A stretch of DNA of 64,000 bases from positions 1-64,000 of the forward strand of contig JANWIF010000095.1 of the NCBI GenBank assembly GCA_025450035.1, in the 5' to 3' direction. Positions 37,462 to 41,463 of this stretch are shown here, in pieces (the stretch's first letter is position 1; the number at the start of each line of letters is the position of its first letter). Both the position numbers and the translations under genes were made by a program. The notes under the pieces are model-generated. The model was given only the letters and a program-made list of their open reading frames with translations, was not told the origin of the DNA and made no database searches. The DNA comes from Gemmatimonadaceae bacterium (lineage in GTDB: Bacteria; Gemmatimonadota; Gemmatimonadetes; Gemmatimonadales; Gemmatimonadaceae).

Positions 37462-37860
37462 TCACGCGGACTCCTCGCGAACATGCCTGGTAAGCTGCGA
37501 TACCACGCCCAGTAGCTCGTCCAGGTCGAACGGCTTCAGTAACACGAGCGACCCACAGGCATCGAGCAGTTCCTGCGCATGTTCGCTGGCGTCGCCGGTG
37601 GTGAAGACGGTCCGGTTCCGCAGGTGCGGTTGGAGCGACGACGCCAGTTCGAACAGCACGTCGCCGCGCATGTCTGGAATGCGCAAGTCGGAGATGAGGC
37701 AATCGAAGTGCTCCGAGCGCACGAGCCTCGCTGCCACCTCACCCGATACGACGGCCCGCACATCGTAGCCACTGCGGGTAAGCGCGATAGACAGGGCCCG
37801 GCAGATCGACGGTTCGTCGTCCACGACCAGCACGCGTGCCCTTTCGTTGTAGATCATCAT
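37462..37860 (-). CDS. single-domain response regulator (receiver only)
   Basis: ARVLVVDDEPSICRALSIALTRSGYDVRAV...DCLISDLRIPDMRG...LLKPFDLDELL. Confidence 0.9.
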   Translation of the reverse strand: MMIYNERARVLVVDDEPSICRALSIALTRSGYDVRAVVSGEVAARLVRSEHFDCLISDLRIPDMRGDVLFELASSLQPHLRNRTVFTTGDASEHAQELLDACGSLVLLKPFDLDELLGVVSQLTRHVREESA

Positions 37861-38645
37861 ACGTGACTTTCTCCCTGGCGGCTCAAATGTGCCGTCAACT
37901 CCCGTATCAACTGCTCGGGTTCACCGCGCTCGCGTAACTTCGTCGGCGTGAGTCCCGTCGCCGCGCGCACCTGGCGGGCGAACACTCGGGCGCTTCCGTA
38001 ACCCAACTTTTTCGTTATGTCATCCAGCAAATAGCCCGGATCGCGCATGTAGTGCACCGCCCGTGTCAGCCGGGCTCCCAGTATCAGCATTCTCGCCGAG
38101 GCCAATCCAAGGCGATCCAACGAACGGTCAAGATTTCGACGCGTCATTCCCGCGGCACGCGCGAGATCTTCGACATTCCGAAACATGTGCGGCGCATCAA
38201 ACAACTTTGCGATGGCTCGTCGCAGCATTGGCGGAGCCGCATCGAGGTGGGACGCCAATCCCTGCAACGCGATATCACTCAGCTGCTGTGCCGGCAACCG
38301 CTCCAACAACTCCCGAACACGCCGCGGTTCATCATCGAACCCGCGCAAAATCAGATGGCGGATCCCGAGATTCGCTAACTCGACGGTTGCTCGCAGTACT
38401 TCCGGCGTAAGCAGCGTGTACACCACCACCGGCAACGTCGGATAGTGCGCGATCAGTCGTCGAACTTCATCGGTCTCAATCGTGCCCTCGGCACGCGGAT
38501 CCAAAACCACCGCGTCGATCGGGCGCAATCGAACAGCCTCCACGAGCTCGCTCCAGTCGTGAACGACGGTTAGAGCATGCTCACTTTCGAGAGCAACTCG
38601 GAGACGAGAGGCGAGTGGGGCAGGCAGGCGTGCGAGAACTTCCAA
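37857..38645 (-). CDS. AraC-family regulator with receiver-like N-terminal domain
   Basis: C-terminal AraC HTH (VEDLARAAGMTRRNLDRSLDRLG ... DITKKLGYGSARVFARQVRAATGLTPTKLRE); in-frame TTG at 38645 is an alternative to the ATG at 38696, which would overlap the operator. Confidence 0.75.
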   Translation of the reverse strand: MEVLARLPAPLASRLRVALESEHALTVVHDWSELVEAVRLRPIDAVVLDPRAEGTIETDEVRRLIAHYPTLPVVVYTLLTPEVLRATVELANLGIRHLILRGFDDEPRRVRELLERLPAQQLSDIALQGLASHLDAAPPMLRRAIAKLFDAPHMFRNVEDLARAAGMTRRNLDRSLDRLGLASARMLILGARLTRAVHYMRDPGYLLDDITKKLGYGSARVFARQVRAATGLTPTKLRERGEPEQLIRELTAHLSRQGESHV

Positions 38646-38658
38646 GTTGGCGCCACTT

Positions 38659-38689
38659 TGTCCTAAAAGTGCACATCGCTGTCCTAAAA
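38659..38689 (+). promoter_or_regulatory. putative operator: TGTCCTAAAA-N11-TGTCCTAAAA
   Basis: TGTCCTAAAA at 38659-38668 and 38680-38689, same orientation, 21-bp period; identical architecture at 40297-40327. Confidence 0.75.
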
Positions 38690-38770
38690 TGTGCATTTAC
38701 CACAGGACGCGCCAACATACCTTGCGTGACGATCGTGACACCACATCACATTCCGTCCGCGAGGTTCCCA

Positions 38771-38896
38771 ATGGTCCGCCGTCGCCTAGCCGTTCTCGTT
38801 CTCGCTATCGCCTCGTATGCCCTAGCCGCCTGTGCCTCCCCCACCGCGCCCAGTCAAGTTTGCGGCGTCAATGCGGGCAGCGGCATTTGCAAGTAG
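38771..38896 (+). CDS. 41-aa lipobox/secreted peptide
   Basis: MVRRRLAVLVLAIASYALAACASPTAPSQVCGVNAGSGICK*; GAGG 6 nt upstream of ATG; lipobox LAAC; terminator follows. Confidence 0.65.
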   Translation: MVRRRLAVLVLAIASYALAACASPTAPSQVCGVNAGSGICK

Positions 38897-38956: not shown

Positions 38957-40216
38957 TCATCCAGCCAAGCCCGCCAAAGTCCGCATGTCGTGAATCGCGC
39001 CAGCAACTTCTGCGACTCGCGGCGAAAGCTCGATGCTCTGCTTCTCGCCGGCCTGCGTGCTCACGACCGCACCACCTTCCCTCATTTCCGACAGACTCTG
39101 CTCCGCCTTGATCAACACCTCGTTGATCTCGTGCCGCGATGCCATGTCCAGCGCTCGCTCGAGTGACGCCTTCGCCTGCTCGACCCTACCAAAGATCCGG
39201 TAGCCCTGGCCAACGTAGTAGAGGTAGAAGGCCATGAGGGTCGCGGGCAGGTTCGCCTCCAACAGCTCGCGGCGATACTGCTCGAACACCGGCTCCCTTC
39301 GATCACGCGACGCGATTTCCATCAAGTTGATCGTGGCCACCCAGCGCGTGTATTGCTCCTGCGCCGTCGCAGCCAACATCAAGTTTGCGTCTCGCGCCGC
39401 GCTCAGTAGACCCAGGTCCACGAATGCCACGGCCAAGTCAGCGAGAACGCGGTCACGTGCCATCTGATCGCTAAACGTACTGAGCGCTTCGTATGCCAGA
39501 GACACGGCTTTGTCCACGTCCCCACGTTGCCGTGCGACCGCACCCCGGTCCTGCAGTGCGAACGCACGCAGCTCGGTCAAGCGGCTCTCATCCGCGCTCT
39601 CGATAACGGCGTCGAGAATCTTCTCCGCTGCCGGCAGATTACCGCGCGCCATCAACACGTTCGCTTCAGCGATGCGCGCCTTGAGCACGTTCATCACGTC
39701 GCCCGTGAACGCCGCCACCTCTGCCGCGGTCGCATACGCTCCACGCGCGTCGCTCCACTCTGCCAGCATGCGTAGGCACGCGCCGAGCTGCATGTTTGCC
39801 GAGATCACGACGTCCGCATCGGCCACCGGCTCGGCGTTCCTGACCACCGTGCGGTAAACGTCGACTGCAAGCGCCCACTCGGCGTCAAACTGCAACGCCC
39901 GCGCGTACGCCATCAGTCGAGGCGCGACCAGTGCCACGCGTCCATGTCGGGCCAACTGCATCGAGTCCACCAGACTCGTCAGCAGCGCCCGTAGGCTGCT
40001 TCCCGCATCGATTGCCGAGATAGACTCACGCACGCATCGCAGCGTCCACGAATCCGACGACACCGCACTCGCCCCGTCCATTACCCAGTCGTCGAACAGC
40101 CGCAGAGTTACCAACCCAGCACTCATCGTCCGCCACTCGGCGCACGTCTCGTTCTCGCACTGGGCCAGCGCCTCGAAAAACGCGTAGTGGGGGAGCTTCA
40201 CGTTGGAGCGTCCCAT
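38957..40216 (-). CDS. stand-alone TPR-repeat protein (419 aa)
   Basis: ATG at 40216 preceded by GGAGGCAGTAC; helical repeats (ALAVDVYRTVVRNAEP, LPAAEKILDAVIE, VDKAVSLAYEALSTF, VEQAKASLERALDMA). Confidence 0.8.
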   Translation of the reverse strand: MGRSNVKLPHYAFFEALAQCENETCAEWRTMSAGLVTLRLFDDWVMDGASAVSSDSWTLRCVRESISAIDAGSSLRALLTSLVDSMQLARHGRVALVAPRLMAYARALQFDAEWALAVDVYRTVVRNAEPVADADVVISANMQLGACLRMLAEWSDARGAYATAAEVAAFTGDVMNVLKARIAEANVLMARGNLPAAEKILDAVIESADESRLTELRAFALQDRGAVARQRGDVDKAVSLAYEALSTFSDQMARDRVLADLAVAFVDLGLLSAARDANLMLAATAQEQYTRWVATINLMEIASRDRREPVFEQYRRELLEANLPATLMAFYLYYVGQGYRIFGRVEQAKASLERALDMASRHEINEVLIKAEQSLSEMREGGAVVSTQAGEKQSIELSPRVAEVAGAIHDMRTLAGLAG

Positions 40217-40296: not shown

Positions 40297-40327
40297 TTTT
40301 AGGACAACAAGGGGTCATTTTAGGACA
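40297..40327 (-). promoter_or_regulatory. putative operator: TGTCCTAAAA-N11-TGTCCTAAAA upstream of the TPR gene
   Basis: TTTTAGGACA at 40297-40306 and 40318-40327 (plus strand), 21-bp period; proximal site lies 80 nt from the ATG (81 nt for the peptide gene). Confidence 0.75.
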
Positions 40328-40455: not shown

Positions 40456-41463
40456 TCACTGACGGACCGACGTGCTTCTCGCGGGCGGCGACAGAGAGCT
40501 GCCGACGTCGCCTCGAACACTTGGTGCGCGACCGGCGACGTACCGGCTGCCACTCCTGTCCAATTGATCGAGTAAACGTTCGAGCGCGTCGCCAAAGATC
40601 TCCACCCTCGGCAAGTGCAATGGGTCGAACTTCGGGTCAAACGGACTGCGAGACGGCCCGCCAGACACTTCGAGAATCGCGTCGAATCGGTACCGAATCA
40701 CGCGCCCGGAGCTGGGATCGCGCCACGAGCCAGCCCGCGCCAGCTCTCTATTGCGTGGCCAGATCCCTAACGGAAGCGCGAAGGTGCGCACGCGATATCC
40801 GGGTACTGCGGAATCGATGGCCAGCGCGCCTCTCGCGATTTGCTCCTGTACCGTCTCATCGGAATACTTGGCCAGGTTCGCGTGCCAGAGCGTGTGGTCG
40901 CAGAGCTCAAATCCCTGATCGGCCAAAAAGCGCACCTTGCGAAACCGCCAGATGGTTTGTTGGCCGTCGATACCGTGCTCCCCGAAGAACGCGTGCCCAG
41001 CCGCCGCTCCAGGCAGCATACAGAACGTCGCTTTGTTCGCCCAATCGGGGTGCGCACGATGGAATTCGAGCCAGATGCCAATGGCACTGTTCGAGTCCAC
41101 GACGAGCTTTCCGTCGCGCTCCACGAAACTGAACTGTGAGGGAGAGGCATCGTCGAACGTGAATACAACAGGTGACATGCCAGGAGGCAGGTTGATCCTT
41201 CGATCCACCAGCTCGGCAACCGTGATCGGGCGGTAGCCCCTCTCATAGAGGAGCTCGAGTTGCTTGCGGAAATGATCGCGGGCCACCGTCCAGCGCGCAT
41301 CGGCGTCGCCGATCACATGATACTCGATGATCGGAATGCGGCCGAGTTCGTTGGAGGGTCGTGTGCCGTGCCGCGCCGGGTGGTGACGCGCGATTACGGG
41401 GCCTCCGCCGAGTGCGGTCACTACGACGAACGCGATCTGAAACACGGGATGCATGGGAGACAC
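40456..41463 (-). CDS. polysaccharide deacetylase family protein
   Basis: PIIEYHVIG, VFTFDDASPSQFSF, FELCDHTLWHANL. Confidence 0.85.
   Translation of the reverse strand: MSPMHPVFQIAFVVVTALGGGPVIARHHPARHGTRPSNELGRIPIIEYHVIGDADARWTVARDHFRKQLELLYERGYRPITVAELVDRRINLPPGMSPVVFTFDDASPSQFSFVERDGKLVVDSNSAIGIWLEFHRAHPDWANKATFCMLPGAAAGHAFFGEHGIDGQQTIWRFRKVRFLADQGFELCDHTLWHANLAKYSDETVQEQIARGALAIDSAVPGYRVRTFALPLGIWPRNRELARAGSWRDPSSGRVIRYRFDAILEVSGGPSRSPFDPKFDPLHLPRVEIFGDALERLLDQLDRSGSRYVAGRAPSVRGDVGSSLSPPARSTSVRQ

Follow-up and report, generated by a model that had tools for sequence, protein, structure and literature searches.

A conserved lipobox peptide gene in a three-gene cassette of Gemmatimonadota and its possible role as precursor of a secreted signal

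Enterococcal sex pheromones of the cAD1 type, which are sensed by PrgX/TraA, combine a lipoprotein-precursor pheromone with a TPR-type receptor. Peptide signals read by cytosolic TPR receptors, collectively the RRNPPA systems, have been described from Firmicutes, and there almost exclusively from Bacilli; their propeptides may contain as many as six identical copies, and signal peptidase II is used by a minority of them (PMC9765709). Among the best-known members, the Rap proteins act on the receiver-fold partners Spo0F and ComA (PMC3601965). Our search of open-licence papers found none on peptide signalling in Gemmatimonadota or on the cassette described here.

The locus studied here lies within a 64,000-nt stretch of a Gemmatimonadaceae genome (contig JANWIF010000095.1; "the window"). 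Its anatomy resembles that of Rap-Phr in Bacillus: a TPR receptor without a DNA-binding domain, receiver-fold partners (ComA and Spo0F there, proposed ones here), an adjacent precursor of ~40 aa (putatively exported here) with the variable unit at its C terminus, and paralogous pairs, several to a genome, that differ in their tails; multi-copy precursors are known as well (PMC9765709). In contrast to Rap-Phr, the cassette belongs to a diderm phylum, the peptide gene is convergent with the TPR gene instead of following it in line, the precursor is always a lipobox peptide with a GSG-rich, often Cys-paired tail, an own AraC-type regulator and 21-bp operators are present, and a Rap N-terminal domain is not detectable. 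NprR-NprX and PlcR-PapR of the RRNPPA systems share with the cassette heptapeptide-size units, multi-copy precursors (PMC9765709) and a TPR receptor, and NprR is among the Foldseek matches of our TPR model. Those receptors have their own HTH, however, whereas the cassette encodes the DNA-binding part separately. The enterococcal pheromones differ in that the signal derives from the signal peptide, whereas here conservation and repeats are found in the C-terminal tail.

A short conserved gene missed by gene callers

The initial annotation of the window had described a 41-residue lipobox peptide with a C-x8-C tail, its own Shine-Dalgarno sequence, an operator upstream and a strong terminator downstream. 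The following features correspond to this description:

38761..38764, plus strand: GAGG Shine-Dalgarno core, 6 nt 5′ of the ATG
38771..38896, plus strand: gene of the 41-aa lipobox peptide (precursor), based on translation, homologues, synteny, pN/pS and strand control
38771-38830: signal
38831-38833: proposed lipid-accepting Cys21
38834-38860: linker ASPTAPSQV
38861-38863: Cys31
38864-38887: loop GVNAGSGI
38888-38890: Cys40, followed by Lys41 and the stop codon
38917..38952, plus strand: intrinsic terminator between the convergent genes, 3′ of the peptide gene

The frame translates to MVRRRLAVLVLAIASYALAACASPTAPSQVCGVNAGSGICK, followed by a stop, and has a basic n-region, a hydrophobic core and a lipobox of the type [LVIA][AST][AG]C; the cysteines at residues 31 and 40 enclose the eight residues GVNAGSGI. 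GAGG or GGAG occurs at the equivalent place in most homologues. The terminator consists of a 15-pair hairpin (folding z = -4.6) with a T-rich tail.

Searching 60 related genomes, we found same-genus homologues of the whole peptide with 73-84% identity, full length or up to the contig end, and weaker homologues spread over the family. Each good homologue is a tiny ORF with ATG, Shine-Dalgarno sequence, lipobox and stop, and homologues range from the genus and family to a second family of the order and further families of the class. The lipobox Cys (C21) and the Ala before it (A20) are near-invariant among 22 aligned peptides. As to the conservation of the frame and the substitution pattern, by which the initial annotation had proposed to judge the gene, the frame is kept in relatives and changes are mainly synonymous, with pN/pS = 0.31 over 23 peptide pairs and signal and tail behaving alike. 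In the four closest orthologues, they are mostly third-position and synonymous, and the operator is nearly unaltered.

A chance ORF or a non-coding element between terminator and operator would, as a very short frame, escape gene callers as well. This explanation is hardly conceivable given the pN/pS value, the presence of a Shine-Dalgarno sequence and the outcome of a fixed-pattern search, in which 66 of 72 TPR-regulator loci had the peptide on the expected strand and none had it on the opposite strand, with no match in shuffled sequence; we rejected it on the strand and shuffle controls and the substitution pattern. Comparative sequence evidence confirms the 41-residue peptide as the product of a real, overlooked gene that is conserved across the class within Gemmatimonadota. 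The family was overlooked because it is too short for gene callers, and the peptide has no family match in Pfam or NCBIfam.

The genomes are mostly metagenome-assembled, and the one containing the window is 81% complete. The closest orthologue whose tail is sequenced (L021) lacks a stop codon, and its frame continues through the hairpin; it lies less than 300 bases from a contig end.

The cassette, its proteins and its operators

The gene order is fixed: TPR gene, convergent peptide gene in the middle and divergent AraC-type regulator gene. The window contains these genes and neighbours:

37462..37860, minus strand: receiver-only response regulator (Response_reg, 2.1e-18), its start overlapping the stop of the regulator gene
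37857..38647, minus strand: regulator with receiver-like N-domain and AraC-type HTH (HTH_18; AlphaFold2; Foldseek)
38957..40216, minus strand: TPR protein of 419 aa, the proposed cytosolic peptide receptor (TPR_12 match; AlphaFold2; Foldseek)
40456-41463: gene of a polysaccharide deacetylase, 5′ of the TPR gene

A profile search gave 79 distinct TPR loci for which flanks were available; 69 of them have the peptide and 72 the regulator (for the peptide count, three loci were reassigned and L059 was added to the automatic picks). The look for similar peptides beside TPR genes, suggested by the initial annotation, was strongly positive, and the peptide gene is the middle member of a three-gene cassette. 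The TPR family was present in 65 of 148 genomes of the family, 88 of 201 of the order and 92 of 298 of the phylum, and the cassette exists also in the sister family and in other families of the class. Among distant TPR members, a peptide adjoins at 20/20 loci of a first set, one of them stop-interrupted, and at 15/20 loci of a second set, three of these peptides being longer (86-96 aa). At least three such cassettes, which differ in their tails (GVNAGSGI, GVTIGPH and QITIGPH), are present in the genome of the window. All 19 loci from one scan of named genomes with a narrow TPR profile carried the titles Gemmatimonadota, Gemmatimonadetes or Gemmatimonadaceae. A mobile-element origin was considered and rejected, as no TPR relative was found among plasmid or phage records.

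Some loci deviate from this arrangement. In a TPR clade of genus g30 (L144, L145, L146 and L147), the regulator gene is codirectional with the TPR gene and follows it after ~50-70 nt; the interval contains no peptide, which counts against a reading of the peptide as signal. Neither peptide nor regulator was found alongside the TPR genes of another subclade (L028, there the second TPR gene, L066, L138 and L140), possibly receptors without a signal of their own. In L181, an in-frame stop interrupts the precursor just ahead of its repeat units; this is a decayed or misassembled copy.

The TPR protein (~420 aa) has no HTH and no signal peptide. Domain searches returned generic TPR models only, with no match to Rap, PlcR or other RRNPPA Pfam domains, and sequence searches gave weak generic matches including RapJ (2.7e-5). 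AlphaFold2 predicted an all-helical TPR superhelix (pLDDT 91.3). In Foldseek, eukaryotic LGN and designed TPRs ranked first, followed by NprR, Rap of pLS20, RapH and Rap of phi3T with TM ~0.5, so that the modelled likeness to Rap and NprR is not specific. Compared to the RRNPPA systems, the cassette has the predicted TPR superhelix and the gene for a small, putatively exported precursor beside the receptor gene, and in distant relatives also a short C-terminal unit, sometimes in several copies, which would mature from the precursor. RRNPPA family HMMs, the N-terminal HTH and the Rap 3-helix bundle were not found in the TPR protein. Because these sequence-level family features are missing and the structural match is not specific, we do not assign the cassette to RRNPPA. 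The TPR open frame of the class-level relatives L179, L181, L186 and L187 is longer (~600 aa); in L181, L186 and L187, the TPR part is preceded by ~200 additional N-terminal residues, possibly a sensory domain.

The start of the regulator was set at TTG 38647 by alignment with homologues; the longest ORF begins at 38696, within the operator. HTH_18 was matched with 4.3e-13 (49.8 bits vs a cut-off of 33.6). In the AlphaFold2 model (pLDDT 88.6), the N-domain consists of five alternating strands and helices, and the best Foldseek matches were full-length response regulators, FixJ first; a receiver fold is predicted on this basis. The phospho-acceptor position Asp65 is kept and invariant. HTH_18 and the predicted receiver fold are shared with AraC-family and response-regulator factors, from which the window's receiver-like domain differs in having neither the acidic pair nor the conserved Lys.

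A receiver-only gene follows directly behind the regulator in 28 of 62 cassettes, the window included. Directly upstream of the TPR gene, 18 of 74 loci encode an OppA-type solute-binding protein of family 5 (SBP_bac_5, E 4e-54 to 2e-67 for complete proteins); these fall into two separated clades of the TPR tree and include two other cassettes of the same genome, which also encodes an OppC-type permease (OppC_N). In the window cassette, it is the polysaccharide deacetylase gene and not OppA that adjoins the TPR gene, and this counts against a signalling role. Such deacetylase genes occupy the equivalent place in many cassettes of the family.

The upstream operator named by the initial annotation was recovered as a pair of direct repeats, TGTCCTAAAA at 38659 and 38680, and has a counterpart before the TPR gene:

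38659..38689, plus strand: operator TGTCCTAAAA - N11 - TGTCCTAAAA, 21 bp period, between regulator and peptide genes
38696-38701, plus strand: proposed -35 box TTTACC (inferred promoter)
38718..38723, plus strand: proposed -10 box TACCTT (inferred promoter)
40297..40327, minus strand: operator pair, second copy, 5′ of the TPR gene

With the inverted copies at 40297 and 40318, the window has four matches to TGTCCTAAAA vs 0.51 expected, and the operator at 38659-38689 is identical or has one base changed in four same-genus orthologues. A genome-wide search allowing up to 3 mismatches recovered the pair at the two cassette sites only, one ahead of the peptide and one ahead of the TPR gene; no regulon outside the cassette was found. 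Direct repeats of 10 bp (up to 1 mismatch) with a 21-bp period lie upstream of the peptide in 36 of 71 loci, as compared to 0-5 loci for each other period between 12 and 40. Their sequences vary between cassettes (TGTCCTAAAA, TGGCACAAAA, TGATAGGAAA and others), as would be the case if every regulator recognised a site of its own. In 30 of 56 loci, a -10-like TAnnnT box follows the second repeat at a distance of 28-29 nt, and the repeat thus comes to lie next to the -35 region. The same spacing of 21 bp and position next to the -35 region is known from the direct repeats of AraC I1-I2. These tandem half-sites, two helical turns apart, constitute a putative AraC-type operator.

Cysteine pairs and repeat units in the peptide tail

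The tails have a common layout: a near-constant [S/D]xTAP, a linker of variable length and a C-terminal motif, commonly [VI]xxGSG or similar. Among 64 peptides of the family, 39 have two tail cysteines, 25 none and 0 a single one, a pattern compatible with a disulfide loop.

Several distant members end in tandem heptapeptides, (HTLGSGN)x6, (HNPDSGN)x3, (HGPDAGS)x4, (HTPDSGS)x2 and (DYVNPLG)x4, the first of these at L179. Between adjacent copies, we counted 40 synonymous vs about 1 nonsynonymous change; copies that differ almost only synonymously indicate selection for a single amino-acid sequence in each copy. The sister family has one copy of the unit between two cysteines and a second one at the end, and the copies are alike within a precursor and different between precursors (NWQGSGT..NWQGSGT, SIQGSGT..SIQGSGT, SGHQGSGT..SGHQGSGT). 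The window peptide has a single unit. On these sequence patterns, we read the 7-8 residue unit, GVNAGSGI in the window, as the candidate active part. The (DYVNPLG)x4 peptide, whose copies have synonymous differences only, is encoded in L049 (G010:C36:10546-10647) beside a relative of the regulator and a protein weakly matching the TPR profile.

Repeated core units and Cys pairs also occur in RiPP or bacteriocin-like precursors. The repeated GSG tail could then be a modified, released core with TPR protein and regulator as accessories, and two resemblances far below cut-off point the same way, that of a repeat-rich relative to the RiPP TigB (E 0.002) and that of the TPR protein to HaaT (E 0.0015). 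We consider this very improbable, since about 30 neighbourhoods revealed no constant modifying enzyme, immunity gene or dedicated exporter, and the conserved lipobox signal is unusual for RiPP leaders. Only slightly less improbable is an ordinary small structural lipoprotein, merely co-regulated with the TPR gene and devoid of a signalling role: such lipoproteins are common, and a weak, sub-cut-off resemblance to YgdI/YgdR is seen in the signal region only, but the repeat units, the conservation of the C-terminal tail motif behind a linker of variable length and a three-gene order fixed over many genera speak against it.

The positions of contig ends suggest that the tail may be hypervariable within a species, but identity between species drops just mildly toward the C terminus, and the tails of orthologues are conserved. 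The ends are concentrated inside the TPR gene, 9 of 14 distinct ones falling at profile positions 160-219 of 373, where ~2.3 would be expected if they were uniform (L148, L149, L150, L023, L026, L040, L151 and partial matches among family genomes). In two genomes, another contig ends within the peptide tail. Strain-level variation of the receptor half and the tail may underlie this cluster, or an assembly effect.

A proposed signalling cassette

We propose that the peptide probably serves as precursor for a small secreted signal within a self-contained cassette, sensed by the TPR protein in analogy to Rap-Phr. This reading is preferred because it is the simplest account that uses all parts. 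It starts from the conserved gene, its cassette and operators, the units under amino-acid selection, the paired cysteines and the predicted TPR and receiver folds; export, lipidation, disulfide formation, release, uptake, TPR binding and the direction and target of regulation we infer as follows. The response-regulator-like AraC protein would bind the 21-bp-spaced repeats and drive both the TPR gene and the promoter of the peptide gene. The precursor of 41 aa would be exported via its lipoprotein signal and anchored by Cys21, and its C-terminal unit would be cut free, here the loop C-GVNAGSGI-C and in relatives a single or tandem 7-mer ending in GSG, DSG or similar. An Opp-type transporter could then re-import the released unit for binding by the cytosolic TPR protein. 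The latter would control a receiver-fold partner, either the AraC-type regulator itself or the product of the receiver-only gene that follows, modelled on Rap, which acts on ComA or Spo0F until Phr binds.

Further points count against a signal. A lipidated tail would stay at the membrane, and its release would need a protease; the paired tail cysteines would be reduced in the cytosol; and the operator is confined to the cassette. The main rival explanation takes up these properties. The peptide would be a tiny outer-membrane lipoprotein that is never released, and the TPR protein would bind its unexported precursor in the cytosol, so that the cassette senses lipoprotein export or the state of the envelope and feeds back on its own expression. 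This would suit paired cysteines forming a periplasmic disulfide, the limitation of the operator to the cassette and the near-invariant lipobox Cys, although most known pheromone precursors are not lipoproteins (92% SPI; PMC9765709). Such an envelope monitor leaves unexplained, however, why exact tandem heptapeptides are kept by synonymous change, why paralogues have specific tails and why OppA genes adjoin some cassettes, and we regard it as unlikely.

The initial annotation had proposed no function; the present analysis adds the cassette, its tandem heptapeptides and the interpretation as a signal. On the whole, it appears fairly probable that peptide signalling exists class-wide in a diderm phylum, with lipobox precursors, single or tandem heptapeptides, a stand-alone TPR receptor, a response-regulator/AraC switch and several private channels per genome, either as an independent invention or as a deep relative of the Gram-positive Rap-Phr systems. 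If this is true, Gemmatimonadota, common in soil but poorly cultivated, possess a peptide language of their own with multiple channels, encoded by a whole gene family that gene callers have missed owing to its short length, and its signals would be short linear units, open to chemical synthesis directly from the sequence.
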